Shown here in pieces: positions 19,304 through 51,707 of a stretch of DNA of 64,000 nt (positions are counted from its first letter, which is position 1; each line of letters opens with the position of its first letter). The translations under genes were made by a program, and so were the position numbers. Origin of the DNA: Candidatus Methanomethylicota archaeon. Lineage in GTDB: Archaea > Thermoproteota > Methanomethylicia > Methanomethylicales > Methanomethylicaceae. The notes under the pieces are model-generated. The model was not told the origin of the DNA and did no database searches. It saw only the letters and a program-made list of their open reading frames with translations. The stretch is from the NCBI GenBank assembly GCA_029887765.1, contig JARXPF010000001.1:416750-480749 (forward strand), given 5' to 3'.

Positions 19304-20033
19304 CCAAGAATATTATTGTCATAAGACTTAGAACTCTTGATATTTCATTTATCGATCCAAACATATCTCCAGTAATACAACCAAATATATTAGTTAAAAA
19401 TTTAAGCCAAATTAATGAAAATATTAAAACTATAATAAAAGAAAATATTGCTTTAAAACTTATAATATATACTATTAAAAGTGATAAAAATATTCCTAAT
19501 ATTAAATTTTTAATTCTTTTTTCTTTTACTTTTAAAATAAATATTCTTCCAATACCATGATTATAAGGTTTAGCAAAACACCCTATTATTAAAATAGATA
19601 ATTTTGCTAAACATTCAGCTAATATTAGCATTGGAAAGACTTTCTCTTCTATTAAGATTATTGTAGCTAAAGTAAGAGTAAGTATAAAATATACAGTGAA
19701 AATTCCTCCTATACCATGATGTTTATCATGAAGAATTTTTAAACGCTCTTCTTTAGTACCTCTGAACATTAAAGCATCACCAAGATCTAATAATCCATCT
19801 AAATGATTTAATCCTGTTAAAATCATAATTGAGAAAAGTGTAAAAATAGCTGCAATTAAATTAGGAATTAATTTAAAAAGAATATAACCAAAAATTCCAC
19901 AAATAGTTCCAATAAAAGCACCAATCAAAGGAAAAAGATATGCATAATTTGATATTTCTTCTATTGTACTATCTTTTGAAGGAATTATAGTTAAAAATGA
20001 AATAATAGATTTAATTCCTTCAAATATTTTCAT
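19296..20033 (-). CDS. cobS: CobS cobalamin synthase (membrane)
   Basis: A polytopic membrane enzyme (245 aa) that joins AdoGDP-cobinamide and alpha-ribazole(-phosphate). The catalytic segment is LNHLDGLLDLGDALMFRGT (about residues 75-93, the D-G-x-x-D-x-x-D pattern of this transferase family), with HDKHHGIGG after it. Six or more hydrophobic segments follow. A C-terminal FGCITGDMFGSINEISR motif is typical. It overlaps cbiS by 14 bases. Confidence 0.92.
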   Translation of the reverse strand: MKIFEGIKSIISFLTIIPSKDSTIEEISNYAYLFPLIGAFIGTICGIFGYILFKLIPNLIAAIFTLFSIMILTGLNHLDGLLDLGDALMFRGTKEERLKILHDKHHGIGGIFTVYFILTLTLATIILIEEKVFPMLILAECLAKLSILIIGCFAKPYNHGIGRIFILKVKEKRIKNLILGIFLSLLIVYIISFKAIFSFIIVLIFSLIWLKFLTNIFGCITGDMFGSINEISRVLSLMTIIFLGV

Positions 20034-21138
20034 TCTTATTCCCCTTCAACATATAAGAGTACATCTTACTAGATACGCCTGCTAATAAACTACCTATTGC
20101 ATCATCAATAAATGGAGGAAGTTTCTTTAAAATTCCTGGCTTATTTCTATCAAATCTATAAAATTCAAAAAGTCCATTATAACCAGCAATATACATAGAA
20201 ATTGAAATGCCCAATATTTCATCTGCAACTAAATTTACTATATCTTTTTCAAAATCTTCAGCTGATAAATTAGGAATAAGACCTTTTTTTCCATCTTCAT
20301 TTATCCTTAAAGCAGCCATAATTAAAGAAGCTACATTTATATCATTCATGGTTTCAATTAAAATTTTTTCAAAAATTTCTTTTGCTTTTTCTTTAGAAAA
20401 TGAAGAATGAGAAACATACATTTCCATAGCAGTAGATATGAGATCTTCTAAAAATATTCCACGTTCTTCAAGTCTTTTTAAAAGTGGTCTATTTGGTAAA
20501 ATTCCATCATGAGATATTATTGCATCTCTAACAGCTTTTTCTACAGATGTAGCAATAAGCCATCCTAATTCAGTTGCACTACCAGCATATTCCAATGGAG
20601 TGCCTTCATTAAGAGATGCTATTACTATAGCATCAGATGAAGTACCAGTTGCTTGCTCTTTACTTATTTTACTTCTTAAATCTAAAGAAGCTAAAGCTTT
20701 ACACTTTGCTTCAGTAATTGTTGCAATAGCATTTACCATACAACTTTCTGTCATACTTCTATTTACAATAACAATAATATTTATAGTACCTAAAAATTCC
20801 ATTTGTCCCCCATCTGTTATAGAAGTAGCATTTGATGTTCCAGCAGTAACTATTACTAAAATTTTTAAATTAGATGTACATGCTTCAACTATACTAGCCT
20901 TACTAACATCTGCACCTGTCATTAAACATACAACATCTTTGATTTCATTTTCTTTTATTTTCAAAAATTCAAAAGGGTTTTTATAAAATTCTAAAGGAAT
21001 ATGTAAATTTACTATTTTATTAGAAAATTTTAAACCTCCATTAATAGGAGCTGAACTTAATATTTTAAATTCTTTTTTACTTTCTATTACAATTGCTTCT
21101 TTATTTATTTCTATTCTTAAATCTTTAAAAATTTCCAT
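20020..21138 (-). CDS. cbiS: CbiS: adenosylcobinamide amidohydrolase fused to alpha-ribazole phosphatase
   Basis: A two-domain salvage enzyme of 372 aa. Residues about 1-215 are CbiZ-like (VCLMTGADVSKASIVEACTS, VIVTAGTSNATSITDGG), which removes the aminopropanol arm from scavenged cobinamides to give cobyric acid. Residues about 225-365 are CobZ-like, a PgpA-related phosphatase (IFLEDLISTAMEMYVSH, LPPFIDDAIGSLLAGVSSK), which dephosphorylates alpha-ribazole phosphate. This fusion is the arrangement called CbiS in Methanopyrus. The cleaved corrinoid can re-enter through the adjacent CbiB. Confidence 0.88.
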   Translation of the reverse strand: MEIFKDLRIEINKEAIVIESKKEFKILSSAPINGGLKFSNKIVNLHIPLEFYKNPFEFLKIKENEIKDVVCLMTGADVSKASIVEACTSNLKILVIVTAGTSNATSITDGGQMEFLGTINIIVIVNRSMTESCMVNAIATITEAKCKALASLDLRSKISKEQATGTSSDAIVIASLNEGTPLEYAGSATELGWLIATSVEKAVRDAIISHDGILPNRPLLKRLEERGIFLEDLISTAMEMYVSHSSFSKEKAKEIFEKILIETMNDINVASLIMAALRINEDGKKGLIPNLSAEDFEKDIVNLVADEILGISISMYIAGYNGLFEFYRFDRNKPGILKKLPPFIDDAIGSLLAGVSSKMYSYMLKGNKNENI

Positions 21139-22037
21139 TCAATCACCCCTATTATTAATAAAATTATTATAATAAATATAGCAGAAATTTTGAAAATATT
21201 TAATGAATCTTTAATTTTTTCAAGAGAGGGATTATTATCTCCTCCTTTAATAAAATAATGTCCAGGCTTATTTAACCATATTTCTAAAGCACCAGCCATT
21301 GTGGACATTGGCCATCCTGCATTTTTACTTTCTGTAACTGAATGATAATTTTTTGTTGTAATTATAGCATTTTTCCAATTTTTACATAGAATTATAGATG
21401 ATAAAATAAATATTAAAGAAGACAATCTTGCAGGAATATAATTTGCTAATGTATCAAGTTTTGCTGAAAACCATCCAAAATGTAAATAGCGTTCATTTTT
21501 ATATCCCACCATAGAGTCTAATGTATTAATTACTCTATATGCAATAGCACCTGGAAGACCAAAAATAAGATAATAAAAAATTGGTGATAAAAAACCATCA
21601 ACAAATCCTTCAGCAACTGTTTCTATTGTTGCAGATGCAATTAGAGGAGGATTTAACGAAGATGTATCTCTTCTTACAATCATTGATAAAAATTTTCTTG
21701 TTTTTTCAATATCAGAATTAAAATATTTAATTATAGGATAAGTATGAGTAAACATACTTTTAAAAGCAAATGTCATTTTTAATAGAATAGATGAGATAAT
21801 TACTTGAAAAATAATATTATTTATAATTGTTAAAAAATATATTGGTAATGTAAAAACAATTATTGATGTAATTGCAAAAATTGAGCCAGCTAATTTTTCA
21901 TTTTTTATTTTTCTAAAAATTTTTTCAGTATTTTCTATAAATTTACCAATCCAAACTGTAAGATGGAATTTTTTTGGAGGTTCTCCAAAAATTAAATCTA
22001 TTATGAAAGCCAATAGTAATATAATAATATTCATCAA
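21117..22037 (-). CDS. cbiB: CbiB adenosylcobinamide-phosphate synthase
   Basis: An integral-membrane enzyme (306 aa) that attaches (R)-1-amino-2-propanol phosphate to adenosylcobyric acid. Typical features are IIDLIFGEPPKKFHLTVWIG at the N-terminus, VRRDTSSLNPPLIASATIET, NTLDSMVGYKNERYLHFGW and a C-terminal GWPMSTMAGALEI segment. Four to five membrane helices are visible. It overlaps cobD by 4 bases, matching the shared pathway step: CobD makes the linker that CbiB uses. Confidence 0.94.
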   Translation of the reverse strand: MMNIIILLLAFIIDLIFGEPPKKFHLTVWIGKFIENTEKIFRKIKNEKLAGSIFAITSIIVFTLPIYFLTIINNIIFQVIISSILLKMTFAFKSMFTHTYPIIKYFNSDIEKTRKFLSMIVRRDTSSLNPPLIASATIETVAEGFVDGFLSPIFYYLIFGLPGAIAYRVINTLDSMVGYKNERYLHFGWFSAKLDTLANYIPARLSSLIFILSSIILCKNWKNAIITTKNYHSVTESKNAGWPMSTMAGALEIWLNKPGHYFIKGGDNNPSLEKIKDSLNIFKISAIFIIIILLIIGVIEWKFLKI

Positions 22038-23407
22038 GGTAATAATTCCTCCATTATGTTCTTCCTTATTTTTAAAATTAATTCTGGATTAGATTTTTTA
22101 ATATCAATATTGGCTATTTCTTTTAAAACTTTATCTGCAACTTCAATACGATGAACCCATAAACAATCAATACAAGACCATACAATTCCTCCACTTTCTC
22201 GATCAATAAATTTTCCCCCAGTTCTTCCATCTAAACAAGGATAAAATGGACAAAAACAAAGCCTACAATCAAGAACAATTTTATGACATTTTTTTTCAAT
22301 ACAGGAAGGATTATTTGGATAGATTTTCTTCATGAAATTAATTATATTATTAAGAGCTTCAATTAATAACAAATTTTCTTCTTCTTTTCTAACAGCTACT
22401 CTTATATAATAATCAGAAAGACCTCTAATTGAACTTAAATCTCTTATAAGAAGACCATAAGAAAGTAATCTCCATTTTAAATTCTTTGAAGAAAAACCAC
22501 TATTACTAATATCAATCATAAAAAAATTAGCACCAGAATATATTGGATTTAAACCATGAATTGATTTTAATAATTCAAAGAATTTTCTTTTAATTTTAAT
22601 TAATTTTTCTTTTGATTGTTTTAAAAATTCTATATCACTTATTGCAGAAAGAGTAGCTATTTCTTCTAATATACCTACTCTCCAACTTATGGCTGTATTT
22701 TCAAATTTTTTTGCTATAATTGGATTACATATACAACATCCAATTCTTAAACCAGGAAAGCCAAAAGATTTAGTAAGAGATCTTAAAACAAAGAGATTTG
22801 AAAATTCTTTTGTTAATTCTATAACAGATTCAACTCCTTCTGATAAATCATAATAAGCTTCATCAATTATAACAAAAATTCCTTTATTCTCTGCTTTTTC
22901 AATAATATCAATAATTTTTCTTTTTTCTAAAATTTCTCCAGTTGGATTATTTGGATTACAAAGAAAAATTGCTCCATTTGAAGTATTTTTATCAATATAT
23001 TCAATAATACCATCAAGGTTTATTTTTATTCCTAAAGGATTTATGAAAATTATATTTAAATCAAGAGCTCTTGCTGCAGCTTCATATTCACTAAAAGTAG
23101 GTATGGGAATTATAACATTACCTCTTACAAATCTTGCAAGAATTGAATGAATTAATTCTGTTGTACCACAACCAACTATTATTCCATCATGACTTATTCC
23201 TAAATAATTAGCTAATGCCTCTTTTAATTTAGAATAATTTCTATCAGGATAAAATTTTATTAAATTTAAATTAGATACAATTGTATTAAGAACTTTAGGA
23301 GGAGGACCAAAGGGATTTATATTGGAACTAAAATCAATGATTTTTTCAATAGGAATATTCATAAAATTAGCTATTTCAAAAATATCTCCACCATGATTAG
23401 CAATCAT
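22034..23407 (-). CDS. cobD: CobD L-threonine-phosphate decarboxylase with Cys-rich C-terminal domain
   Basis: A PLP enzyme of the HisC/CobD fold: GGDIFEIANFMNIPIEKIID, SSNINPFGPP, NNPTGEI, VIIDEAYYDLSEG and the Lys loop LRSLTKSFGFPGLRIG (about residue 212). The product is aminopropanol phosphate. From about residue 365 an extra domain of about 90 residues carries at least eight Cys (IEKKCHK, LDCRLCFCPFYPCLDGR, VWSCIDCLW). A similar metallocentre tail is known in Methanosarcina mazei CobD, which also acts as L-threonine kinase. That dual role is likely here because no separate Thr kinase is seen. Confidence 0.9.
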   Translation of the reverse strand: MIANHGGDIFEIANFMNIPIEKIIDFSSNINPFGPPPKVLNTIVSNLNLIKFYPDRNYSKLKEALANYLGISHDGIIVGCGTTELIHSILARFVRGNVIIPIPTFSEYEAAARALDLNIIFINPLGIKINLDGIIEYIDKNTSNGAIFLCNPNNPTGEILEKRKIIDIIEKAENKGIFVIIDEAYYDLSEGVESVIELTKEFSNLFVLRSLTKSFGFPGLRIGCCICNPIIAKKFENTAISWRVGILEEIATLSAISDIEFLKQSKEKLIKIKRKFFELLKSIHGLNPIYSGANFFMIDISNSGFSSKNLKWRLLSYGLLIRDLSSIRGLSDYYIRVAVRKEEENLLLIEALNNIINFMKKIYPNNPSCIEKKCHKIVLDCRLCFCPFYPCLDGRTGGKFIDRESGGIVWSCIDCLWVHRIEVADKVLKEIANIDIKKSNPELILKIRKNIMEELLP

Positions 23408-24078
23408 AAAAATTTCACCACATCAAATTCATTAATTTTTAACATACATCTCCCCCATTTTTCAATAATATTATATTTCTTTGGAATAATTTTTCCACTC
23501 ATTATAGGAGCTTCTAAAACCAAAGTGTGATACTCTCCTAATTCACCATAAAATCCTATTGAAGAAAATTCTTCAAAATTTTCAAAATTAATCACTTTAC
23601 CAAGTAAATTTTTATTTAATCTTAAAGGATCTAAGTCACATACTATAGCTTTAATTCCTGATTTTATTTCTTCTATAAGAATATTATTTTTCTCATTATG
23701 GAGTGGAGCATATAGTTTTATATTCATTTTTTTACAAAGTTCATCATACCATTTTAATTGATCCATAGCATTAATAGTCCCAACAATAATCCATTTAATA
23801 TTAAGCTTAGAAAATAATTCATAAAGTTGAAAATATTCTAAATCTTTTTTAAGATGAAGTTTACACAATGGTATTCCAATTAAAGAAGCTATTGTTTCTA
23901 CTACATTATAATTTAATTCATGTACATTTGGTCTTGGGAAATCATGTGTATTAAAAAGTAAATAATGAATAGGAATGCCATTATTCATTGCTTTCATTAT
24001 AGAAAAAATTGAGTCTTTTCCTCCTGAAAAAAATGCAAGCCCCTTTGTCATTAATGAGGCCTCCAACAATATCCACAA
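23404..24078 (-). CDS. Dph6-like PP-loop ATPase within corrinoid operon
   Basis: A 224-aa PP-loop protein (GLAFFSGGKDSIFSIMKAM near residue 13) with the Dph6-family tail GELGEYHTLVLEAPI. Such enzymes activate a carboxyl group with ATP and release PPi, as in diphthamide amidation. It overlaps the AsnB-like gene by 28 bases and cobD by 4, so it is an integral part of the corrinoid operon. A second family member (15416-16057) leaves open which, if either, is Dph6. A role in corrinoid amide chemistry is inference from position only. Confidence 0.75.
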   Translation of the reverse strand: MWILLEASLMTKGLAFFSGGKDSIFSIMKAMNNGIPIHYLLFNTHDFPRPNVHELNYNVVETIASLIGIPLCKLHLKKDLEYFQLYELFSKLNIKWIIVGTINAMDQLKWYDELCKKMNIKLYAPLHNEKNNILIEEIKSGIKAIVCDLDPLRLNKNLLGKVINFENFEEFSSIGFYGELGEYHTLVLEAPIMSGKIIPKKYNIIEKWGRCMLKINEFDVVKFL

Positions 24079-24977
24079 TATTTACATCTCTGTTGAATTA
24101 TTGGAGATTTACAATAAGGACAACCATTTTTTGCTCTAGGAGGAGTTCCATAGATTTCTCTAAATAATTTATAGAAGAAAATTTGTTCTCTATTCCAAAA
24201 CCTTATACCATCTTTAAGAGCTTCTTCTTCTATTTTATTCGCCTCTTCTCCTAACATATTTAAAAATATTTTAGTTATAATTGAGCTGCCACTTCCAATT
24301 TCAATTGGTTCTTTCTTCCTCCATGCAATTTCACTAAAACCCATTTTTTCTAATATTTTTCTTAAAATCCATTTTCCATATAATCCATTAATTTTCCATT
24401 CATATGGTAATTTTTTTGCAAATTCAATAATTTCTTCCATTAAAAATGGTTGATATACATTTAAGCCCATAACATTTCCAATTATAGGTGATGAAAAATT
24501 CCAATTCTTATATAATAAATCCATGTATCTTTCTAATTCTTGTTTTTTCATATTAATCATAAAGTCATATCCAGCAAAAAGTTCATCTCCTCCATCTCCA
24601 GTCATAATTTCTTCAATTCCTTCTTCTTTACATTTTTTTAATGCAATATAAATAGTAATATCATTTCTTATTTCTATATGATCGAAGGTTTTTAGAATTT
24701 TAATAATTTCTTTTGATGCTTCTAAAGCTTCTTCGATATTATATTTGACAATAATATGTGGTATTTTAAGTTTCTTAGAAATTCTCAAGGAATATTCTTC
24801 ATCATTGCCATTATTAAAAATAGCAGTTATAGCAACTATTGGTCTAATTTTAGATGCAATAATAGTAATTAAGCTACTATCTATTCCACCAGAAAATAAA
24901 ACAGCATTAGCTTTAGATGATTTAATTGATTTAGTTAAAAGTTCTAATAAAATAGATTCATAATTCATTTCAAGCAT
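24051..24977 (-). CDS. Asparagine-synthase-like PP-loop protein with zinc-ribbon tail
   Basis: A 308-aa protein matching the C-terminal synthetase domain of asparagine synthase (AVLFSGGIDSSLITIIA near residue 25; EIMTGDGGDELFAGYDF near 123), but with no glutaminase domain. Ammonia must therefore come from elsewhere or another nucleophile is used. The last 30 residues form a four-Cys zinc ribbon (GCPYCKSPIIQQRCKYCGYC). It lies between btuD and the Dph6-like gene with overlaps on both sides. A tRNA-thiolation or amidotransferase role is possible; nothing in the sequence decides. Confidence 0.75.
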   Translation of the reverse strand: MLEMNYESILLELLTKSIKSSKANAVLFSGGIDSSLITIIASKIRPIVAITAIFNNGNDEEYSLRISKKLKIPHIIVKYNIEEALEASKEIIKILKTFDHIEIRNDITIYIALKKCKEEGIEEIMTGDGGDELFAGYDFMINMKKQELERYMDLLYKNWNFSSPIIGNVMGLNVYQPFLMEEIIEFAKKLPYEWKINGLYGKWILRKILEKMGFSEIAWRKKEPIEIGSGSSIITKIFLNMLGEEANKIEEEALKDGIRFWNREQIFFYKLFREIYGTPPRAKNGCPYCKSPIIQQRCKYCGYCWRPH

Positions 24978-25777
24978 ATAACTTCCTCGCTCTTTATTTT
25001 TCTAGTTTTTGGAATAATAATGGGATTATCTCCATCCCATTTTATAGTAGCTTCAATACCATAAACTTCACTTAAGAGATTTTCATTAATTACATCCCTT
25101 GGTTTTCCAAATGCTACAATCTTGCCTTTATTTAGAACTAAAATTTTATCACAATAATTACAAGCTAATTCTATTTCATGAAGTGAAACAATTACAGTTT
25201 TTCCAAGTTCAGTTAATGCTTTTAAAATATCCATAACTTCAATTTTATGTTTTAAATCTAAATAGGCTACTGGCTCATCTAATATTATTATGTCTGTTTT
25301 TTGAGCTAAGGATTTAGCTATAAGAATTTTTCTTTGTTCTCCACTACTTAATGTATCAAAATCTCTATTGAAAAGATGAGAAACTTCTAAAAGACTTAAA
25401 ACATCTTCAACAACTTTTATATCTTCATCTCCCTCCCACCAAATGCCATTTATTCTATTTCTACAACCCATGAGAACAACTTCATATGCCTTCATACTAA
25501 AGCCATTAGGCCAGTTTGGTAACATAGCTGATACAATTTTTGAATATTCTTCATTAGTATACTTATTAGCAGGTTTTCCTAATACAATTAAAGAACCTAT
25601 TGGGATTATGCTTCTTGCAATACATCTAAGTAATGTTGTTTTTCCAGAACCATTTGGTCCAATTATACCAAGCATTTCTCCTTTATTTACTACAAATTCG
25701 ATGTTGTCTAATATTGTAGAAGAATCAAATCTTACAGTTATTTTATCTATTATTATACTACATACTATATTTCTCAC
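24965..25777 (-). CDS. btuD: BtuD-like corrinoid ABC transporter ATPase
   Basis: The ATPase of a FecCD/BtuCD-type importer (270 aa). Walker A is GIIGPNGSGKTTLLRC (about residues 36-51), the signature LSSGEQRKILIAKSLAQK, Walker B IIILDEPVAYLDLKH and the H-loop IVSLHEI. It overlaps btuC by 20 bases. The corrinoid substrate, rather than iron-siderophore, is inferred from the cobinamide salvage genes that follow in the same operon. Confidence 0.88.
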   Translation of the reverse strand: MRNIVCSIIIDKITVRFDSSTILDNIEFVVNKGEMLGIIGPNGSGKTTLLRCIARSIIPIGSLIVLGKPANKYTNEEYSKIVSAMLPNWPNGFSMKAYEVVLMGCRNRINGIWWEGDEDIKVVEDVLSLLEVSHLFNRDFDTLSSGEQRKILIAKSLAQKTDIIILDEPVAYLDLKHKIEVMDILKALTELGKTVIVSLHEIELACNYCDKILVLNKGKIVAFGKPRDVINENLLSEVYGIEATIKWDGDNPIIIPKTRKIKSEEVICLK

Positions 25778-26771
25778 CCCTTTTTAATAATAGATATATA
25801 AAGAAAGGAGCCCCCATCATAGAAGTTATAACACCAACAGGAAGTTCGCCGAGAGGATTAAGAGGACTTTTAACAATATTATCTGATAATAGTAATAAAA
25901 GTGCTCCAGTAAGTCCTGCTAAAGGAAGAACAAATCTATTATCTGAAGAAATTAATAATCTAACTATATGAGGAGAAACCAACCCTATGAATCCAATAAT
26001 ACCACTAAAAGCTACACATGTTGAAACAGATAAACTAGAAAATAGTAACATTAAATTCCATAATTTTTTAGCATTAATACCTAATTGACGAGCATGTTCT
26101 TCTCCAAGTAATAAAATATTAAGATCTCTTGCATTTATAAGTAAGAATATACATGAAGGTATTACAATTGGAGAAATTACATAAATTTCACTCCACTTAG
26201 CTGTAGAGAAAGATCCATATATCCAATATAGTATTCCATGAGCTTTTTCTGCAGCAAGTGTTAAAATTAACATTAACATAGAGCTAAAAATTGTACCAAT
26301 AGCTATACCAGCAAGTATAAACCCTATATTACCTGCTTTTGAAATTTTAGTTAAGAATATTGTTAAAAAAATTGAAGTTAATCCTCCAATAAAAGCAAAA
26401 AATGGAACCATAAATATACTTACGAATGGTAAGATAAATGCAATTGCAGCACCTAAAGCAGCACCTGAGGACATTCCAGTAATGTATGGATCTGCTAATG
26501 GATTTCTTGTTAAGGATTGAATTACTCCTCCAGCTATACCTAATGAGGCTCCTGTTATAATAGCAGAAAGAGCTCTTGGAAGACGATAATTGTTAACAAT
26601 AGTATTTACAACACTATTATTTTGGAAGAAAAGAGCATTTATTACTTCAATAGGAGATAATGGATATGCACCTATCATTAATGATGTTAAGAAAGCTATG
26701 AACAAAAATAATGATAAAAAAGAAGTATAGATTATTAATCGAGTTTTTCTTTTTTTAGCAATTTCTAACAT
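25758..26771 (-). CDS. btuC: BtuC-like corrinoid ABC transporter permease
   Basis: A FecCD-family permease (337 aa) with nine to ten membrane helices. Family motifs are YRLPRALSAIITGASLGIAG, SLTRNPLADPYITGMSSGAALG, the coupling-helix LGEEHARQLGINAKK and GFIGLVSPHIVRLL. It starts 2 bases after btuF ends. It forms the membrane channel for the corrinoid importer with the adjacent ATPase and binding protein. Confidence 0.9.
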   Translation of the reverse strand: MLEIAKKRKTRLIIYTSFLSLFLFIAFLTSLMIGAYPLSPIEVINALFFQNNSVVNTIVNNYRLPRALSAIITGASLGIAGGVIQSLTRNPLADPYITGMSSGAALGAAIAFILPFVSIFMVPFFAFIGGLTSIFLTIFLTKISKAGNIGFILAGIAIGTIFSSMLMLILTLAAEKAHGILYWIYGSFSTAKWSEIYVISPIVIPSCIFLLINARDLNILLLGEEHARQLGINAKKLWNLMLLFSSLSVSTCVAFSGIIGFIGLVSPHIVRLLISSDNRFVLPLAGLTGALLLLLSDNIVKSPLNPLGELPVGVITSMMGAPFFIYLLLKRGEKYSM

Positions 26772-26773
26772 TA

Positions 26774-27880
26774 TTATCGCCTAATTAAGGCTTCATAATC
26801 ATTAATGAAATTTGGTATTGTTTTGCCAAATATTGTTGGATATAATATGTTTGCAAGTAATTTTATTGCATCACTTATTCTTGGACCGGGTCTTTCCACT
26901 GCATTAGCCGCATTTCCACTAAGAATATAAATTCTATTATTTTTAATTGCATTGATTTGATCAAATCCTGGTAAGCTCTTGAAATAGTTTAATAATTCTT
27001 CTGGAGATTTTGGCAAAGCCATTGAACTCATTATTATTACATCTGGATTAGCAGCTACAATTTGTTCTGGATTCACTACAAACCATCCACTTTTATCACT
27101 AAATACATTAATTCCGCCAGCAATTGAAATAATTTCATTTAAATAAGTTCCATTTCCTGTTACCCACATTGGATCAGGATATACTAAAAAGACAATTTTT
27201 TGTTTAGTTACATTAGATAATTTTGTCTCTACTTCATTTATTGTATTTATTATTTCACTTATTACAGCTTCTCCTTCTTTAAATTTTGAAGTAATTTTTG
27301 CAATTAATCTTATATTATTTATAACATCATTTACACTTGGAGATTCTAATGCTATTACAGTTAATCCAAATCCTTCTAAAGTTGAAATAAATTTCTTTTG
27401 AAGACTTGCATCAATAAGAACAATATCAGGTTGTAGTGAAGCTACTTTTTCTGGATTAAGTGTTGTTACTCCTCCAATTGTTTGAATTTTTCCAATTTTT
27501 ACTAAATCTAAAACTTCTGGTGGATAATTGGAATATTGATCAACACCCACAATTTTATCAGAAAGTCCTAATGCGAAAAGAGTTTCAGTTATAGATGGGG
27601 TGCCTGAAACTATTCTATTAGGTTCAAATTTTACAGTAACCACTCTTCCAAGAGCATCTTTTATGAAAATAGGATAGTATAATTCTTGTATAGCACTTAG
27701 TTCTTTTTTCAATTCCTTAAATTCATTAACCAAAATACTAAGAGAGGCATTTAATTGTTTGAAATTATCTGATAATTGTTTGAAGTTTTCTGAAACTGAA
27801 TTATTTATATAAGTTATGAACATACTATTAGCAATTCCAAGTAGTATGGCTATTATTACAAATAAAGCAAGTTTTTTCAT
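26774..27880 (-). CDS. btuF: BtuF-like corrinoid-binding lipoprotein/anchored protein
   Basis: A substrate-binding protein for the BtuCD pair. The start is ATG 27880, because GGAGG lies about 7 bases upstream and a hydrophobic MKKLALFVIIAILLGIANS anchor follows directly; an ATG 30 bases earlier precedes the Shine-Dalgarno and is unlikely. A short coiled-coil linker (about residues 25-60) precedes the two-lobe PBP fold (RIVSGTPSITETLFALGLSD, GGVTTLNPEKVASLQPDIVL, NPEQIVAANPDVIIMSS). There is no lipobox Cys, so it is a membrane-anchored rather than lipidated protein. It is the first gene of the operon. Confidence 0.88.
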   Translation of the reverse strand: MKKLALFVIIAILLGIANSMFITYINNSVSENFKQLSDNFKQLNASLSILVNEFKELKKELSAIQELYYPIFIKDALGRVVTVKFEPNRIVSGTPSITETLFALGLSDKIVGVDQYSNYPPEVLDLVKIGKIQTIGGVTTLNPEKVASLQPDIVLIDASLQKKFISTLEGFGLTVIALESPSVNDVINNIRLIAKITSKFKEGEAVISEIINTINEVETKLSNVTKQKIVFLVYPDPMWVTGNGTYLNEIISIAGGINVFSDKSGWFVVNPEQIVAANPDVIIMSSMALPKSPEELLNYFKSLPGFDQINAIKNNRIYILSGNAANAVERPGPRISDAIKLLANILYPTIFGKTIPNFINDYEALIRR

Positions 27881-27895
27881 GAAAAATCCTCCTAT

Positions 27896-27912
27896 GGATG
27901 GATACTCCATCC
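27896..27912 (-). promoter_or_regulatory. Perfect inverted repeat in btuF leader
   Basis: GGATGGA-TAC-TCCATCC, 7-base arms with a 3-base loop, sits just upstream of the btuF Shine-Dalgarno. A TATA-like element (TTTATATATTCC on the minus strand, 27928-27942) lies about 25 bases further up, so the repeat would fall at the transcription start. It could be an operator or an RNA hairpin controlling corrinoid uptake and salvage. Confidence 0.45.
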
Positions 27913-29847: not shown

Positions 29848-30951
29848 ATGGTTCCAATAAACAAACCTATTTTAGGTGAAGAAGAGAAAGAATTAGTTTT
29901 AAAAGTTTTGGAAAGTGGAATTCTTACAGATCCCTCAATGAATGGAGGACCCTATGTAAGAGAATTTGAAAAAGAATTAGCAAAATTTACTGGAATTAAA
30001 GAAGCCATAGTAGTAAATTCTGGAACTTCAGCTTTACAAATAGCATTAATGGCACTTGGCATAGGTCCAGGAGATGAAGTTATTGTCCCTTCTTTTACAT
30101 TTGTAGCTACAGCTAATGCTGTAGTACTAGTAGGTGCAAAACCAATTTTCGTTGATATTGATTTAAATACATATAACATAGATCCAAATAGTTTTAAAAA
30201 AGCCATAAATGAAAGAACTAAGGCTGTAATTCCTGTAGATCTCTATGGATTACCAGTAGAAATGGATGAAATTAAGGAAATAGCAAATGATTATGGAATA
30301 GTAGTAATAGAAGATGCTTGTCAAGCTCAAGGAGCGAGATATAAAGGTAAAATGGCAGGAACGCTTGGAGATATAGGCTGTTTTAGTTTTTATCCAGGAA
30401 AAGTAATGACTACAGGAGAAGGAGGGGCTATATTAACAAACGATAGTGAATTAGCAGAAAAAATGAGAATGATAAGAACTCATGGTCAAATAAAAGGATA
30501 TGATTCTAGAATACTTGGAGGAAATTTTAGAATGACGGAGATTAATGCAGCTATAGGAATTGCTCAACTTAAAAAACTTCCAAAATTTCTTGAAAAAAGA
30601 GCAGAAAATGCAAAAATTTTATTAGAATTATTAGAAAATTCAAAAGCTATTCTTCCAAAAGTACCTAAATATTCTATTCACAATTGGTATCTTTTTACTA
30701 TAAGATTAAGAAATTTAGAAGAAAGAGAAGATTTAAAAAATAAACTTAGAGAAAATGGAATTGCAGCCACAGTATATTATCCAACACCAATTCATAAACT
30801 TCCATACTATAGTTCAATAGGTTATGGAGAATTAAAACTTGAAAATAGTGAAATAGCTTCTGAAACTGTATTATCTCTTCCAGTCCATCCACTAGTTAAA
30901 AAAGAAGATTTAGAAAAAATGGCTGATATAATATTAAAATTCATCAATTAA
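29848..30951 (+). CDS. DegT/DnrJ/EryC1-type sugar aminotransferase
   Basis: A PLP-dependent aminotransferase (367 aa) that makes amino sugars for surface glycans. Motifs are VNSGTSALQIALMALGIGPG, PVDLYGLPVEMD, VIEDACQAQGARYKGK and FSFYPGKVMTTGEGGAIL, where the Lys binds PLP (about residue 191). The C-terminal half shows HNWYLFTIRL and VYYPTPIHKLPYY. It stands alone, convergent with the GMC flavoprotein gene (18-base overlap). The sugar nucleotide substrate is unknown. Confidence 0.9.
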   Translation: MVPINKPILGEEEKELVLKVLESGILTDPSMNGGPYVREFEKELAKFTGIKEAIVVNSGTSALQIALMALGIGPGDEVIVPSFTFVATANAVVLVGAKPIFVDIDLNTYNIDPNSFKKAINERTKAVIPVDLYGLPVEMDEIKEIANDYGIVVIEDACQAQGARYKGKMAGTLGDIGCFSFYPGKVMTTGEGGAILTNDSELAEKMRMIRTHGQIKGYDSRILGGNFRMTEINAAIGIAQLKKLPKFLEKRAENAKILLELLENSKAILPKVPKYSIHNWYLFTIRLRNLEEREDLKNKLRENGIAATVYYPTPIHKLPYYSSIGYGELKLENSEIASETVLSLPVHPLVKKEDLEKMADIILKFIN

Positions 30952-32106
30952 TATTGAGGCTATTTTTTTAGATTTAGCAATTATTGTAAGCATTGGTGGA
31001 ATTCCTAATGGTCCTTCTAATATACTTGCATCTGCAATATATAGAGATTCTAAAATAGGTTTATATCCATTAGTAATTGAACTACAAGTTCCTCCTGGAT
31101 GAGCACCTCTCAAATGAGTTGAAACAATATAATTTGGATCTACTCCAGAATTAATTAAAATTTCTTCTGCTTCTTTTCTTCCTTTTTCTAAAAGTTCAAA
31201 ATCTTTATGAGAAATTTGTTTTTCTATTGAATTTAATTTAACAATACCATTTGGCTCATCTGCTATTTTGACCATTATTCCTAAAATTTCTTCAGGATGA
31301 GCTTTTATTCCTTTACTCAAGAGATTTGGTAAAAGAAACATTGAGTAATGTGGTGAGAGTAAATATCCTTCTCTCTTTATATATATTGCCATGCTCAATT
31401 CTTTATTAAAATTTAATTTTCTATTTTTAACTATTCCACCTATAGTTAAAAAAATATCAATAAAGAATTTATCTCCAACATCTTCAATTCCAGATCTCAT
31501 TAATATTCTAGGAGTTTCAATAGCACCAGCACATAATACTATTACATCTCCCATAATTTCCTTACCATTAAAAAGTTTTACACCAATTGCTCTTTCTCCT
31601 TTTATTATTACTTTTTCTACAGGAGAATCTACTAATAATTTCGCTCCCTTTGACATAGCATAATTTATATAATTAATAGCACTCCATTTTGCATTATAAG
31701 CACAACCAAATGCACATTTTCCACAAGATTTACATTTAGAAAAATCTATTGATTTTGGCATTTTTTTCCAATCTGAAGAAGATTCAAGAAGTAATTTTGT
31801 ACCATTTCCAATATGAGATTCTGGAGGATCCTTAACATTTAATTCTTTTTCTACTTCTAAGTAATAATCTTTTAATTCTTCAAAATTTGCTCTCATAGCA
31901 TTTCCCATAGATGTAATTGTTGATCCTCCAACACAGATATTTTGTAAAATTTCTATTTCATTTGACTTAATATTTCTATATGTTGTAGAAGCTTTTTTTA
32001 TATCTACATAGCTCCCATATTCCAATATTAAGACTTCTTTTCCTTTTGAGACTAATTCTTTTGCGATAGTAGCCCCTCCAGCTCCAGATCCAACAATAAT
32101 AAACAT
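30934..32106 (-). CDS. GMC-type flavoprotein with ferredoxin-like Cys insert
   Basis: A 390-aa FAD-dependent oxidoreductase: FAD-binding FIIVGSGAGGATIAKELVSK at the start, VGGSTITSMGN, IVLCAGAIETPRILMRSG, and the C-terminal GMC segment THLRGAHPGGTCSSITNG plus ADASILEGPLGIPPM. Between them FSKCKSCGKCAFGCAYNAKW (about residues 124-143) has four Cys in a ferredoxin-like CxxCxxCxxxC arrangement. It could pass electrons to or from a substrate alcohol/aldehyde. It is the last gene of the coenzyme-B-like operon, 3 bases after the marker-11-like gene, which makes it a candidate for a redox step there. Confidence 0.8.
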   Translation of the reverse strand: MFIIVGSGAGGATIAKELVSKGKEVLILEYGSYVDIKKASTTYRNIKSNEIEILQNICVGGSTITSMGNAMRANFEELKDYYLEVEKELNVKDPPESHIGNGTKLLLESSSDWKKMPKSIDFSKCKSCGKCAFGCAYNAKWSAINYINYAMSKGAKLLVDSPVEKVIIKGERAIGVKLFNGKEIMGDVIVLCAGAIETPRILMRSGIEDVGDKFFIDIFLTIGGIVKNRKLNFNKELSMAIYIKREGYLLSPHYSMFLLPNLLSKGIKAHPEEILGIMVKIADEPNGIVKLNSIEKQISHKDFELLEKGRKEAEEILINSGVDPNYIVSTHLRGAHPGGTCSSITNGYKPILESLYIADASILEGPLGIPPMLTIIAKSKKIASILIDEF

Positions 32107-32109
32107 TAA

Positions 32110-33030
32110 TTATTCCTCCAATTTTACAGCTAAGTCTGGATTTTCTACATAAGGTATAGCAGCCAATGCACCTATTAAACCTCTTTCACCTTTTACTTTT
32201 ATAAGTTGAACATTACAATGTGAAGCTATATTATATGTTTCATTAATTGTAACCATAGAGGACTTTGCTTTATTAGCATAATTAATAAGTTTTTCATTAA
32301 ATAATATTCCTTCAAATACTGCCATTCCAGTATGTTCTGAAAGTGAATATTCTTCAAGCATTTTTTTAAAAGAATTTATTAATTCAATTTTTTTATTTGG
32401 TAAAACTGCAAAAGAAACTGAAATTGCTACACAATTTTGAGTCTTATATGGATTTTTGGGATATAATTGAACTATAGAATGTTCTAAATAATCTACGTCC
32501 ATTTCAAGAGATAATTTATATGAAATTTCATTAACAAGAGACCAAGTAGCTCCTTCATCTTTTTTATCAGTATCATCAACACCTATTACAATTTTTTCCT
32601 TCTTTGGAAGTGTTATTATAACTCTTCCAAGTTTTTCTCCTCCCCCTCTTTCTATTATTTCTACATTTTCAATACCTTTTGCCATAGTCCTTCCTAAAGC
32701 AGCTACTCCAGCTCCAGCTAATCCTGAATAACTAACCTTAATTTTATTATTCTCTACTATAACAAAATCAATAGAAGCTGGACTATAACTAGGTTTAAGA
32801 CATGAAGTTTGGAAAATTGATGGATATATTTTATAAAAAATTCTAGTTCCTTCTCTTTTAGACCAAAAAATACAAGGACTATTTTTTGTATAATGATATA
32901 ATGACCAAGCTGATCCACCAATACATGTTCCTCTAGCATGATCTTCTACAAGCTCTACTACATTATTTTTTTCATCAAACATTGCTACTATTTTATTATG
33001 AGGAGAAATCCATGGTTTATATTCATTCAT
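32110..33030 (-). CDS. Methanogenesis marker protein 11-like
   Basis: A 306-aa protein I recognise as the methanogenesis-marker-11 type, related to the DUF1743/TiaS-like fold. The key stretch is KIVIGVDDTDKKDEGATWSL (about residues 155-174); nearby features are DHARGTCIGGSAWSLYHY and GERGLIGALAAIPYV. The family occurs in methanogens and relatives; its reaction is unknown. The TiaS relationship suggests ATP-dependent ligation chemistry. It sits 4 bases after the ThDP enzyme gene, so the two are co-translated. Confidence 0.75.
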   Translation of the reverse strand: MNEYKPWISPHNKIVAMFDEKNNVVELVEDHARGTCIGGSAWSLYHYTKNSPCIFWSKREGTRIFYKIYPSIFQTSCLKPSYSPASIDFVIVENNKIKVSYSGLAGAGVAALGRTMAKGIENVEIIERGGGEKLGRVIITLPKKEKIVIGVDDTDKKDEGATWSLVNEISYKLSLEMDVDYLEHSIVQLYPKNPYKTQNCVAISVSFAVLPNKKIELINSFKKMLEEYSLSEHTGMAVFEGILFNEKLINYANKAKSSMVTINETYNIASHCNVQLIKVKGERGLIGALAAIPYVENPDLAVKLEE

Positions 33031-33034
33031 AATA

Positions 33035-34582
33035 TTATTCCTCTAGAATTCTTGGTTTTGTAAGTTCTATTCCTTCTTCTTTACTTATTGGAATTTCAAT
33101 TAAAATTGGCTCTTTTACATTAATAAGAATATTACTTACTTCTTCTGGATTTTTTACAGAAATTGCATTAATACCATATGCTTCTGCAAGTTTTAAATAA
33201 TCTGGTGGATTTGAAAAATCTACTCCAAATGTCTTTTTATATACAATATTTTGAATTTGTCTTATTAAACCTAATGATTTATTATTAAAAAGACATATAG
33301 CTATTGCTAAATTATTTTCTTTTATAGTAGATAATTCAGGAGAACTCATTTGAAAACCACCGTCTCCTACTACTGAAATTACTTTTTTATTTGGAAGAGC
33401 AATTTTAGCTCCAATAGCAGCAGGTATTGAAAATCCCATAGAAGACATGCCACCTGAAAATATTAATTGTCTTGGATTTTCAATTTTTAAAGCTTTTAAA
33501 AGCCATATAGTATGTTGACCTATATCTAATGTAAATATAGCATCTTTTGAATTTGCTATAGCTTTTGCATAAGCAATACTTTCTTCATTACTTTTATTTA
33601 AAAAATTATTTTTCCTAATTTTCTTAATTTTATTAATTATTAATTCTAAGAAAATAGAAACATCTCCTTTTATTTTAATATTAGAAATTGAAGAAAAGTT
33701 TTTTTCTTCAACATCCACTTGTATTATTTTACATTTTAAGTCTATTTTTCCAATAGTCATATTTGAAAGTCTACACCCTAGAACTAAAAGTAAATCGCAA
33801 TTAGAAATAGCTTGATTTGCTTCTTTAAATCCTCTTCTTCCTACTGGACCTAGACAAAGGGGGTGTGATTCAGGTATTACTCCCCTGCCCATCATTGATG
33901 TAACTAAAGGAATTCCTGTTAATTCAATAAAACGCATTAATAATTCAGAAGAATTTGAAAGAATTGTTCCTCTACCTGCTAATATTAATGGAAATTTTGA
34001 ATTTTCAATTTCTCTTATTACTAAATCTATACTTTCAGAATCTGGAATTAATTTTTTTGGAATTGGAAAATAATTCAAAATAGTAGAAGGCTTTTTTTGA
34101 ATATCACCAGGAATTATTATACATGAAGGTCCTGGACATCCTTCTAAACAAGCTAAATATGCTTTACATAATATATTATAAGCTTCAAATGAATCATTTA
34201 TTTGAGCATAGAATTTTGTAACTGAAGAAAATATAGAGTTTAAATCTAAATCTTCAATCCATCCTTTACCTTGTTCATATGTTGGAACATGACTTGTTAT
34301 GGAAATTACTGGTGAATTATCTTTAAAAGGTGCAGCAAGTCCAGAAGCTAAATTTACAGCCCCTTGACCAGCAGTACCAATACATAATCCAATTTTTCCA
34401 GAAGCTCTAGCAAATCCATCTGAGGCATATACTGCAAATTGTTCATTACGCGTTAATATGTGTTTTATTTTTGAATTAGAAAGAGCTTCATATATCGGTA
34501 ATGACCACATACCAGGCATTCCAAAAGCTACTTCCATTCCAAATTTTTCCAATGTAGAAACTATCACTTCTGCAACATTCAA
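33035..34582 (-). CDS. ThDP-dependent 2-oxoacid decarboxylase/acetolactate-synthase-like
   Basis: A 515-aa enzyme with the three ThDP-family domains: Pyr ([17 protein letters not shown], with the activating Glu in [17 protein letters not shown]), a central domain ([18 protein letters not shown]) and PP ([20 protein letters not shown], Mg-ThDP site). It overlaps the AksE-like gene by 4 bases. No acetolactate synthase regulatory subunit is adjacent. Position after the homoaconitase subunits suggests decarboxylation of a long 2-oxodicarboxylate such as 2-oxosuberate. Acetolactate synthase or sulfopyruvate/benzoylformate decarboxylase remain alternatives. Confidence 0.75.
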
Positions 34583-35076
34583 GGCACATTACCCTTTATT
34601 TTCTTTTTATAATATTCTACTAAACCTCCAGAATTAAGTATATCTTGAAGTAATTTAGGAAGGGGTTTATATGTTAATATCCCTCTTTTAGTCTTTATTA
34701 TACCCTCATCTAGATTTATTTCAATAATATCTCCTTCATCAATAGCATTATAAATTCCTTTACATTCTATAAGTGGAAGACCATTATTTATTCCATTCCT
34801 AAAAAATATTCTAGCGAAAGATTCAGCTACTACAGCACTTATTCCTGCCCATTTTATGGCAAGTACAGCTTGTTCTCTACTTGATCCACAACCAAAATTC
34901 TTTCCTGCAACAATAATGTCACCTGGTTTGACTTTTGAACTAAATGTAGGATCAATACCTTCAAGAACATGTTTTGGCCATATTGATTTATCCACAGATC
35001 TTAAGTATTTTGCAGGTATTATTACATCAGTATCAATATCATCTCCAAATTTCCAAACTCTACCACTTATTATCAT
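34579..35076 (-). CDS. aksE: Homoaconitase/isopropylmalate isomerase small subunit (AksE-like)
   Basis: The swivelling small subunit (165 aa): [20 protein letters not shown] at the start and [15 protein letters not shown] in the middle. The specificity loop reads YLRS (about residues 24-27). Archaeal homoaconitases acting on longer dicarboxylates carry YLRT-like loops, while isopropylmalate isomerases carry YLV-type loops, so chain-elongating homoaconitase is favoured. It overlaps its partner large subunit by 4 bases and the ThDP enzyme by 4. Confidence 0.8.
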
Positions 35077-36305
35077 CTCACATACCTCCTTGGATCAACT
35101 ATTTTTCCCTCTAATGAAGATGCTGCAACTGTTTGAGGAGAAGCAAGATATACTTTTGAAGATCTGGCCCCCATTCTTCCAATAAAGTTTCTATTTGAAG
35201 TAGAAATACAAACTTCATTTTCACCAAGAACACCCATATGAACGCCTAAGCATGGACCACATCCAGGAATGCCAATTATTGCTCCAGATTCTATAAGTAT
35301 ATCTATTATTCCATCCTTCATAGCTTTTACTAAAGTATCTCTAGAAGCAGGAACTACAATAAGTCTAGCACGAACTTTTTTCCCTTTTAATATTTTAGCA
35401 GCTTCTAATAAATCTTCATATCTTCCATTAGTACAAGATCCTAAAAATGCTTGATCTATAGGTTCTCCTTCTATTTCACTTACTGATTTTACATTTGAAA
35501 CTTTATATGGAATGGCAATTTTAGGATCGATAGAAGAAGAATCTATATGAATTTCTTCAATTGCATCATCATCTGTTTTAAAAATTTTTCCTTCTTTTCC
35601 AAGAAATTGAATAGTTTTTTCATCTGCTTCTATAAAAGCAGTTTTTGCTCCCATTTCCACAGCCATATTAGCCATTGTCATTCTTGATGATTGAGATAAT
35701 TCTTTAATAGTCTCTCCAGTAAATTCTAAAACTTTATATGTTGCACCATCAGTTCCTATTATTCTTACAATTTCTAAAATTAAATCTTTTGAAGAAACTC
35801 CTTTTCCTAAGCTTCCATCAAATCTTACTCTAATAGTTTCAGGGACTTTTATCCATGTTTTTCCAGTTGCTAATATATATGCCATATCTGTTGCTCCCAT
35901 TCCAATAGCCATTAATCCAAAAGCTCCAAGAGTGCATGTATGAGAATCTGCTCCACAAACTATCATTCCAGGAGCTATATAGCCTTTTTCAGGAACAACT
36001 TGATGGCATATACCTTCACCAATTTCATGAAATTTTTTAATACCTTGTTCTTTTACAAATTTTCTTACTTTTACTTGTAAAGTTGCAGCTTGATCGCTAT
36101 AAGGTGGTGCTGCATGATCGAAAATTACAGCTACGTTATCTGGATTAAATATTTTATCAACTTCCATTTCTCTTAGAACATCAATTATAAGTGGACCAGT
36201 TCCATCATGAAAATATGCAAAATTTACAGGAATTTCTATAAAATCTCCTGGTGAAACTTCTTTTCCTATTGTATTAGATATTATTTTTTCTATGGCAGTG
36301 GCCAT
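35073..36305 (-). CDS. aksD: Homoaconitase/isopropylmalate isomerase large subunit (AksD-like)
   Basis: A [4Fe-4S] hydro-lyase of 410 aa. Family motifs are [67 protein letters not shown] and [14 protein letters not shown]; the Cys of CTN and CGPC ligate the cluster. It converts (homo)citrates to (homo)isocitrates in 2-oxoacid elongation. LeuC is the alternative reading, but the AksA-like partner and the small-subunit loop favour the Aks pathway. Fifty bases separate it from the marker-4-like gene. Confidence 0.85.
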
Positions 36306-36355
36306 ATGAACACCAAGAGGATAATTATTAATTAAATATTTTTATTTATCGAAAT

Positions 36356-37144
36356 TTATTTTGCTAATGCACTTGCTAATACAATTGGTAAGAGATAACT
36401 AGTTCTAGCTCTTGAAGTATCAATATATACCTTTGGCAATGCTGATGCATAAGCTCCAAAACTATCCATATTTGCAATAAGAACTAATGATCTAAAAATT
36501 AAGTTCCCAATAATTCCATCTGGAGCCAATATCATAGAAGAAGAATTTACTGCTCTCTCAATTTCTATTCCAAAATTTTCTACATCAAAGCCCATTTCTT
36601 TTATTTTACTAACAAGAACTTCTGAGAAATTTAACATTTCATCAACTTTTTTACTTCTTCCTCTATCTTCAAGTCTTCCTCCAGAAATAACCCCAACCTT
36701 AAATTTTAATCCAAATTTATCTGCAATTTTTTTCCCTTTTATTACAAATTCTAAGAGATCTTCCATAGTATCTCCTTCATCTATACCAACTGGCGCAAGC
36801 ATTATTGGCCTATTTGTTATTTCCATTATTGTTATTCTATATAAATTATTACATTTAAAAGTTAATTTTATTTTTTGTAATATCGTCTTAGCACTTAAAT
36901 TGCCTCTTACAATAGCTTCAACTTTTTCATTTATTAATAAAGAAATTAATTCTTCTTCTAATTCATTTGAAATTATGAAAGGGATTTCAATATTTATTTC
37001 TTTATTACAAACTAATATTGGTTTTGCATAACCTTGTTCTTTTGCAAATATTGCAGAATTTACTATGTTATCTGCAAAAGGTTTATCCAAATCAACTCCA
37101 ATTGCTACAATTGCTTTATTTAATTTAGCTAAAGAATAAATCAT
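36356..37144 (-). CDS. Methanogenesis marker protein 4-like phosphotransacylase homologue
   Basis: A 262-aa protein distantly related to phosphate acetyl/butyryltransferases. Diagnostic stretches fit methanogen marker 4: EGDTMEDLLEFVIKGKKIAD, VGVISGGRLEDRGRSKKVDE, MILAPDGIIGNLIFRSLVLI and VYIDTSRARTSYLLP. The biochemical role is unknown. It overlaps the AksA-like gene by 4 bases, placing an acyl-phosphate/CoA-type enzyme inside an operon for long-chain 2-oxoacids. Confidence 0.75.
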   Translation of the reverse strand: MIYSLAKLNKAIVAIGVDLDKPFADNIVNSAIFAKEQGYAKPILVCNKEINIEIPFIISNELEEELISLLINEKVEAIVRGNLSAKTILQKIKLTFKCNNLYRITIMEITNRPIMLAPVGIDEGDTMEDLLEFVIKGKKIADKFGLKFKVGVISGGRLEDRGRSKKVDEMLNFSEVLVSKIKEMGFDVENFGIEIERAVNSSSMILAPDGIIGNLIFRSLVLIANMDSFGAYASALPKVYIDTSRARTSYLLPIVLASALAK

Positions 37145-38313
37145 TTCTTATATTTCTCCTCCAAAACTTTTTTAGCAAAATCGATTAACTCAGAATTCTC
37201 AATTATTTTATGACCTATTGGTAAATTCTTTAATCTTTTTACAATTTCAGCAATATCTTCTTCACTTAAGTTTAATCCACTTGAAAGAAGTTTTTCTCTA
37301 ACACTTTCAGTACCAGAGTGTCTTCCAAATACAAGCTTTCTTTCTTGTCCAACAATTTGAGGATCATATGCTTCATAAGTAAAAGGATGTTTTAAAACAG
37401 CAGCTACATGAATGCCAGATTCATGTCTAAAAGCATTTTCTCCTACAATTGCTTTATTTACTGGTATTGGTATGCCAGAAAACTTAGAAACTAATAATGA
37501 AAGTTCACGTAATTTTTCAGTATGAAAGTTTAAATCTACTCCATATAATGCATATAAAGACATTACAACTTCTTCTAAAGCTGCATTTCCACATCTCTCT
37601 CCAATACCATTAACAGTAACTGATATAGCATCTATTCCTGCTTCATAAGCAGCTAAAGAATTTGCAACTGCTAAACCAAAATCATTATGACAATGAACTG
37701 ACATTTCAATATTAAAATTCTTTCTTATTTGTTCAACTAAATATGCCATACCCCTTGGTCTTATACATCCTGCAGTATCTGCAATTCCAATTCTATCTAC
37801 ACCATGATCTTCAGCAGCTTTGTATAATGAAAATAGAGAGTCTAGCGTTGTTCTTGTTGCATCTTCTGCAGTTAATTGAACAAAAAGACCATGATCTTTT
37901 GCATATTCTACTGCCCATGCAGCCATATCAATTGCACTTTTTAAATCCATTTTTAATTTATACTTTAAATGTAAATCAGATACTGCTATGAAAATTATTA
38001 TACCTTCTACTTCTGATCTTAAAGCAGCATCTATGTCTCTTTGTTTTGGTCTACATAATGCTAATATTCTTGCATTAAGACGTTCCATAACTACAGCTTT
38101 CACAGCTTCTTCATCATAAGGAGAGATTACGGGAAAACCAGCTTCTATTTCATGAATCCCTACTTCATCCAATTTTCTAGCAATTTCTACTTTTTGCTCT
38201 TTTGTAAACTTAACACCAGGAGTTTGTTCTCCATCCCTTAATGTAGTATCATAAATTTTGACTTTTCTATCTTCACGATGTATAAAATTGTAAGGACTAG
38301 TAAAATATCTCAA
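37141..38313 (-). CDS. aksA: Homocitrate synthase-like enzyme (AksA-like)
   Basis: A DRE-TIM metallolyase of 390 aa: VKIYDTTLRDGEQTPGVKF (metal Asp and catalytic Arg), GIHEIEAGFPVISPYDEEAV, SVHCHNDFGLAVANSLAAYE (HxH metal site) and NGIGERCGNAALEEV. It ends soon after the FGRHSG motif and lacks the long LeuA regulatory domain, so it fits homocitrate synthase/AksA or NifV-like rather than leucine-regulated isopropylmalate synthase. It heads a seven-gene run; the start is TTG 38313. No isocitrate/homoisocitrate dehydrogenase (AksF) lies in the window. Confidence 0.82.
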   Translation of the reverse strand: MRYFTSPYNFIHREDRKVKIYDTTLRDGEQTPGVKFTKEQKVEIARKLDEVGIHEIEAGFPVISPYDEEAVKAVVMERLNARILALCRPKQRDIDAALRSEVEGIIIFIAVSDLHLKYKLKMDLKSAIDMAAWAVEYAKDHGLFVQLTAEDATRTTLDSLFSLYKAAEDHGVDRIGIADTAGCIRPRGMAYLVEQIRKNFNIEMSVHCHNDFGLAVANSLAAYEAGIDAISVTVNGIGERCGNAALEEVVMSLYALYGVDLNFHTEKLRELSLLVSKFSGIPIPVNKAIVGENAFRHESGIHVAAVLKHPFTYEAYDPQIVGQERKLVFGRHSGTESVREKLLSSGLNLSEEDIAEIVKRLKNLPIGHKIIENSELIDFAKKVLEEKYKK

Positions 38314-51665: not shown

Positions 51666-51707
51666 GTTTTTAAATTATTAAAGATATTGATACTTTAGGT
51701 GAATATT

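Follow-up and report, generated by a model that had tools for sequence, protein, structure and literature searches.

Our study concerns a seven-gene operon in a stretch of 64,000 nucleotides (the window; positions 416,750 to 480,749 of contig JARXPF010000001.1, assembly GCA_029887765.1) from a Candidatus Methanomethylicota archaeon. The operon joins homologs of the elongation enzymes AksA, AksD and AksE to a thiamine diphosphate (ThDP)-dependent enzyme, to methanogenesis marker proteins 4 and 11 (Mmp4 and Mmp11) and to an iron-sulfur (Fe-S) flavoprotein of the GMC type. Judging from sequence comparisons, we propose that this is a coenzyme B operon and that its ThDP enzyme is probably a 2-oxosuberate decarboxylase. 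Coenzyme B, 7-mercaptoheptanoyl-threonine phosphate, is needed by methyl-coenzyme M reductase (MCR), the enzyme that makes and oxidizes biological methane. We know of no enzymes assigned to the steps of its synthesis after 2-oxosuberate, and to our knowledge markers 4 and 11 are proteins of unknown function in nearly all methanogens. The first-pass annotation of the window had put the ThDP enzyme forward for this decarboxylation; synteny, its phylogenetic clade and the presence of mcr support it as a candidate.

The seven open reading frames lie on the minus strand between positions 30934 and 38313 and follow the transcription order AksA-Mmp4-AksD-AksE-ThDP-Mmp11-GMC, with intergenic gaps of -4, +50, -4, -4, +4 and +3 bases. 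The first-pass annotation had read seven genes spaced by 50 bases or less, with the ThDP gene overlapping aksE by 4 bases, and both readings hold in the coordinates of the open reading frames; its family names agree with the NCBIfam and Pfam profiles from which the names used here are taken (Table 1). The AksA-like gene, which has an apparent TTG start, is the first of the operon and keeps this place in relatives.

The source genome (1.17 Mb, 97% complete) has its close relatives among Methanomethylicota (Verstraetearchaeota-type) genomes. Synteny, one of the checks proposed with the first-pass annotation, finds the gene order kept in the source genome's family (f1), an aksF-like gene within the operon of a second family from the same taxonomic order (f2), and an aksA-ThDP pair in f5, a family from another taxonomic order of this class. 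Every f1 locus long enough to show the order repeats it, even though the ThDP proteins are just 50-80% identical; some of these loci carry an insertion between Mmp4 and AksD, and other genes often intervene between the operon and its DegT and nucleotidyltransferase neighbors. The f2 run, seen in G109 and in the locus of isolate AUK277, comprises Mmp4, AksA, AksD, AksE, an AksF-like dehydrogenase, ThDP, Mmp11 and GMC. Because the seven-gene order recurs in Methanomethylicota-type loci and, rearranged, in a second family, we do not attribute it to chance. The partner overlapped by the ThDP gene differs by lineage: it is aksE in the window (with a distance to aksE of up to about 120 bases in other f1 genomes), aksF in f2 (by 4 bases in G109) and aksA in f5, where the ThDP gene directly follows aksA in G115, G121, G097 and G216 and overlaps it by 4 bases (14 in G216). 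That the ThDP gene is coupled to a different aks gene in each of three lineages is our strongest argument that its enzyme draws its substrate from the Aks pathway. Three f5 genomes carry, immediately upstream of aksA and the ThDP gene, a long gene judged by eye to be dihydropteroate-synthase-like (L052:221-1774, L090:11938-13491 and L091:2-1114), possibly a further member of the pathway.

In a tree of 44 ThDP proteins, among them 10 acetolactate synthases (acetohydroxyacid synthases, AHAS) and 17 other ThDP proteins, the operon proteins of f1, f2 and f5 form one clade with support of 100/99.9, although the f5 branch is long and its placement less sure than this figure implies. The clade lies outside the acetolactate synthases, which form a clade of their own (100/100). 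The ThDP machinery is retained, with a catalytic Glu47, Asp407 in the Mg-binding GDGG motif and Asn433/434. All 20 operon proteins differ from acetolactate synthase at Phe206, Gln207, Arg377 and Trp574 (Arabidopsis numbering), positions that we take to select its substrates. Arg276 and Trp464 (E. coli AHAS II numbering), present in 9/9 AHAS compared, are replaced in the same 20 sequences by Met, Leu or Ala and by Ile, Leu, Val, Gln, Ala, Lys or Arg, respectively, while the position of Gln207 is taken by an invariant Glu110 and that of E. coli AHAS II His251 by an invariant Arg250. These changes are consistent with a decarboxylase that acts on some other, anionic substrate, without singling one out. 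Against the acetolactate synthase model TIGR00118 the operon protein scores 387.6 bits, below the cut-off of 538.35; the true ilvB of the source genome (C2:31596-33215) scores 773 bits and has ilvN and ilvC beside it. On the tree, the residues and this separate ilvBN-ilvC operon we reject an acetolactate synthase identity for the ThDP gene. No relatives of the operon ThDP protein were found in viral contigs, and plasmids yielded just two hits, both bacterial, at 33-35% identity, one of them annotated ilvB.

The first-pass annotation had also advised looking for mcr genes, and the source genome encodes mcrA (C1:124044-124850, E 3.9e-147). Among genomes of the class with a completeness of 90% or more, both the ThDP clade and Mmp11 above its cut-off are found in 16/16 with mcr and 0/7 without it, a distribution whose Fisher value of 4e-6 overstates independence, the genomes being related and the independent lineages few. 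The Fe-S GMC protein is present in 16/16 and 1/7, respectively; the exception, G240, has 9% contamination and encodes a relative with 37% identity at L166:8084-9388. Genomes with mcr in which no ThDP gene was found are all less than 88% complete. Both the restriction of the clade to mcr-bearing genomes within the class and the three aks-ThDP overlaps rest on sequence data and not on annotation.

The Aks homologs have further relatives in the source genome. AksD has two paralogs elsewhere (50-51% identity) and AksA has weaker synthase-family paralogs; one aksA/leuA-family paralog, 46% identical to AksA, contains an in-frame TAA (C1:12126-13268). The AksE loop reads YLRS in the window and YLRT in G109, a YLR loop that we take as a mark of homoaconitase; two AksE paralogs in the source genome show YLVL and YKFK at this position. 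An AksF candidate lies outside the operon (C2:229504-230475; 443.8 bits to AksF2_Meth, cut-off 540) and is the best source-genome match, at 51%, of the AksF-like dehydrogenase in the G109 operon.

From gene content, order and conservation, together with the ThDP clade and its residues, the protein folds and the link to mcr, we infer the substrates and reactions of the following model. AksA and AksDE, with an AksF encoded elsewhere, would extend 2-oxoglutarate to 2-oxosuberate over three rounds, and from this product the ThDP enzyme would remove the 1-carboxylate to yield 7-oxoheptanoate. The Fe-S GMC flavoprotein could then carry out a redox step between aldehyde and thiol, and Mmp4 and Mmp11 could activate the carboxylate of 7-mercaptoheptanoate, join threonine to it and/or phosphorylate the threonine. 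These roles for Mmp4, Mmp11 and the GMC protein are less secure than that of the ThDP enzyme and are put forward tentatively. The fullest version of the model, in which one operon would encode most of coenzyme B synthesis, from elongation through a new family of ThDP-dependent 2-oxosuberate decarboxylases and an aldehyde-to-thiol conversion by the GMC protein to acyl activation and threonine ligation and phosphorylation by Mmp4 and Mmp11, we consider unlikely; if true, it would give markers 4 and 11 their first function. With the known steps and a separate ThDP family linked in a conserved operon, the first step after 2-oxosuberate becomes testable in one assay.

The operon also yields chemically sensible hypotheses for the two marker proteins. 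Mmp4 has a significant profile match to phosphate butyryltransferase (E 6.6e-10), and its AlphaFold2 model (pLDDT 94) is predicted to have a phosphotransacetylase/phosphotransbutyrylase fold. The closest solved structure is 9nzy, followed by phosphotransacetylases and phosphotransbutyrylases; 9nzy is the MtxX/MMP4 structure (MTH_231) from Methanothermobacter, released in February 2026 with its chain still labelled an uncharacterised methyltransferase. Mmp11 consists of a family-specific N-terminal half and a half that matches, in both sequence and model, the TiaS-type kinase domain (TCKD; residues 146-294), in which a DDTD motif (152-155) and Thr162 are invariant; Thr162 aligns without gaps with a TiaS residue that is presumably Thr18. 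Over its full length Mmp11 reaches 57.3 bits against the TiaS family (cut-off 600), with the TCKD part matched and the FLD part matched weakly. The source genome contains another, weaker hit to the marker 11 model, which is probably TiaS itself. TiaS uses ATP to activate a carbonyl, couples an amine and also phosphorylates a Thr; by analogy, such chemistry may serve coenzyme B, whose threonine must be attached through an amide and phosphorylated. Neighboring Mmp4 and Mmp11 genes also occur in G219 and, as a paralogous pair, on C71 of G109, and the two proteins therefore probably work together.

G109, which has mcr, carries a second, divergent Mmp4-Mmp11 pair (L057:2479-4295) and a third Mmp11-like gene (L058:4572-5543), and G327, a genome without mcrA, encodes a protein more distantly similar to Mmp11, with 34% identity (L054:9024-9695). 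No relatives of Mmp11 were found in viral contigs or plasmids. The GMC flavoprotein has an invariant inserted CX2CX2CX3C Fe-S motif (Cys125, 128, 131 and 135), which is not a usual GMC feature, and a GMC-type catalytic His in HPGGT near the C-terminus (His336, invariant). An operon-linked GMC gene in all lineages was considered and rejected on its unlinked position in the taxonomic order of f5.

Several observations beyond the relatedness of the genomes weigh against the coenzyme B proposal. The cut-offs of the methanogen homoaconitase equivalogs are narrowly missed (HacA_Meth 522 bits against 550, HacB_Meth 202 against 230), and for this reason we speak only of AksD/AksE-like proteins. The sequence comparison covered the Methanomethylicota-type class and some genomes outside it, none of them from euryarchaeal methanogens. 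Mmp11 and GMC do not stand beside the aks genes in the taxonomic order of f5. G219 (f50, outside the class, 98% complete) has the adjacent Mmp4 and Mmp11 genes with no mcrA and no ThDP protein of the operon clade, so that neither marker depends on the presence of mcr or of the operon decarboxylase; a strict tie of Mmp11 to mcr is rejected on the same genome. The G219 pair lies at L049:8285-10109 (G219:C1), with a radical SAM-like gene following it. Markers and coenzyme B use persisting after loss of Mcr have been described, which would allow such a pair in a genome without mcrA, and coenzyme B presumably works with thiol:fumarate reductase in some non-methanogens (PMC9635834).

The most probable alternative, not far short of an even chance, is that only AksADE and the ThDP enzyme make coenzyme B, with Mmp4, Mmp11 and the GMC protein co-transcribed for another methanogenesis-linked task such as maturing MCR or a different cofactor. 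The G219 pair, the place of Mmp11 and GMC in f5 and the extra Mmp4-Mmp11 paralogs at another place in G109 would all suit such a division of labor. It accounts less well for an order kept across the whole Methanomethylicota-type family and for the presence of Mmp11 and GMC in the G109 operon as well, and the kinase and phosphotransacylase folds offer the chemistry that the late coenzyme B steps need; given the presumed use of coenzyme B by some non-methanogens (PMC9635834), markers without mcr are no disproof of a coenzyme B role.

Considerably less probable, but the main rival to our reading of the ThDP enzyme, is a role in coenzyme M synthesis: the enzyme would decarboxylate sulfopyruvate in place of ComDE, and the operon would combine genes for the two thiol cofactors. 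This alternative is live because ComE is not recognizable in the source genome, which leaves another essential ThDP-dependent decarboxylation without its enzyme and counts as a further point against our assignment: ComE (TIGR03846) exceeds its cut-off in 1/40 class genomes (G198, 5% contamination), the source genome not among them, and is not recognizable in 26/27 class genomes with mcrA. Sulfopyruvate is likewise a dianionic 2-oxoacid, and the ThDP clade tracks mcr. However, in each of three lineages the ThDP gene abuts or overlaps an aks gene (aksE, aksF or aksA), profile scans of the operon proteins gave no ComA/B/C-like protein, and coenzyme M may be taken up.

That AksADE serve the synthesis of lysine (through 2-oxoadipate) or leucine, with the ThDP enzyme as an acetolactate-synthase-type carboligase, is very improbable: LysX in the source genome makes a 2-aminoadipate lysine route likely, which needs homocitrate chemistry, but leuCDB adjoining lysX, a third leuCD pair and a true ilvBN-ilvC operon are encoded elsewhere, lysine synthesis requires no 2-oxoacid decarboxylase, and the ThDP clade is outside AHAS and lacks its selectivity residues. 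The first-pass annotation had itself named three outcomes that would speak against a coenzyme B pathway: firm grouping of the ThDP enzyme with acetolactate synthase, leucine or lysine genes completing the cluster outside the window, and a lack of mcr and HdrB-type genes. The enzyme falls in a separate clade, such leucine and lysine genes sit separately in the source genome, and mcrA is present. A leucine or lysine cluster as an account of the whole operon is rejected on the separate leuCD, leuB-like and lysX genes.

Table 1. Genes of the proposed coenzyme B operon, in transcription order (window coordinates).
Gene product	Position	Strand	Profile evidence
AksA-like homocitrate/(homo)n-citrate synthase	37141..38313	-	HMGL-like + HCS_D2; LEU1_arch 487.9 bits (cut-off 484.75)
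Mmp4 (methanogenesis marker protein 4, MtxX)	36356..37144	-	TIGR03270 191.9 bits (cut-off 190)
AksD-like homoaconitase large subunit	35073..36305	-	IPMI_arch 559.5 bits (cut-off 410)
AksE-like homoaconitase small subunit, YLRS loop	34579..35076	-	LEUD_arch 224.6 bits (cut-off 109)
ThDP-dependent 2-oxoacid decarboxylase-like enzyme, proposed 2-oxosuberate decarboxylase	33035..34582	-	all three TPP_enzyme domains
Mmp11 (methanogenesis marker protein 11)	32110..33030	-	TIGR03280 340.8 bits (cut-off 255.8)
Fe-S GMC-type flavoprotein	30934..32106	-	GMC_oxred_N 74 bits

Elsewhere in the window are a run of corrinoid salvage and uptake genes (18680-27910; CobY-like, CobS, CbiS/CobZ, CbiB, CobD-like and an ABC transporter) and a RuBisCO large-chain gene (51699-53027).

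The proposed system resembles the AksA/AksDE/AksF coenzyme B pathway of the Methanocaldococcus jannaschii type in its enzyme families, in its YLRS loop and in the AksF-like dehydrogenase of the G109 operon. Here, however, the aks genes share an operon with genes for a decarboxylase and marker proteins, whereas in M. jannaschii they are scattered. The operon enzyme would resemble ComDE in being a ThDP-dependent decarboxylase for a thiol cofactor of methanogens; ComD and ComE, though, are two short, separate proteins, and the operon protein scores weakly against ComE (31.6 bits, TIGR03846 cut-off 221.5). Mmp4 has its fold and a significant profile match in common with the phosphotransacetylase/phosphotransbutyrylase family, but is only about 10-18% identical to the phosphotransacylases among its fold matches. 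Mmp11 shares with TiaS (tRNA-Ile2 agmatinylcytidine synthetase) the TCKD kinase domain, the DDTD motif and the aligned Thr, and differs from it in having its own N-terminal half and no tRNA-binding tail. The closest large ThDP family by sequence is IlvB, with which the operon enzyme shares a three-domain architecture, the catalytic Glu and the GDG motif; it differs in length (about 515-535 residues against about 560-595), in its separate clade, in lacking the selectivity Arg, Trp, Phe and Gln and in having no regulatory subunit adjoining. A lead to a possible counterpart in other methanogens is MJ0663 (arCOG02000), an uncharacterised second acetolactate-synthase-like ThDP protein of ~500 residues, distinct from IlvB and present in all 15 Methanococci surveyed (PMC5311999).

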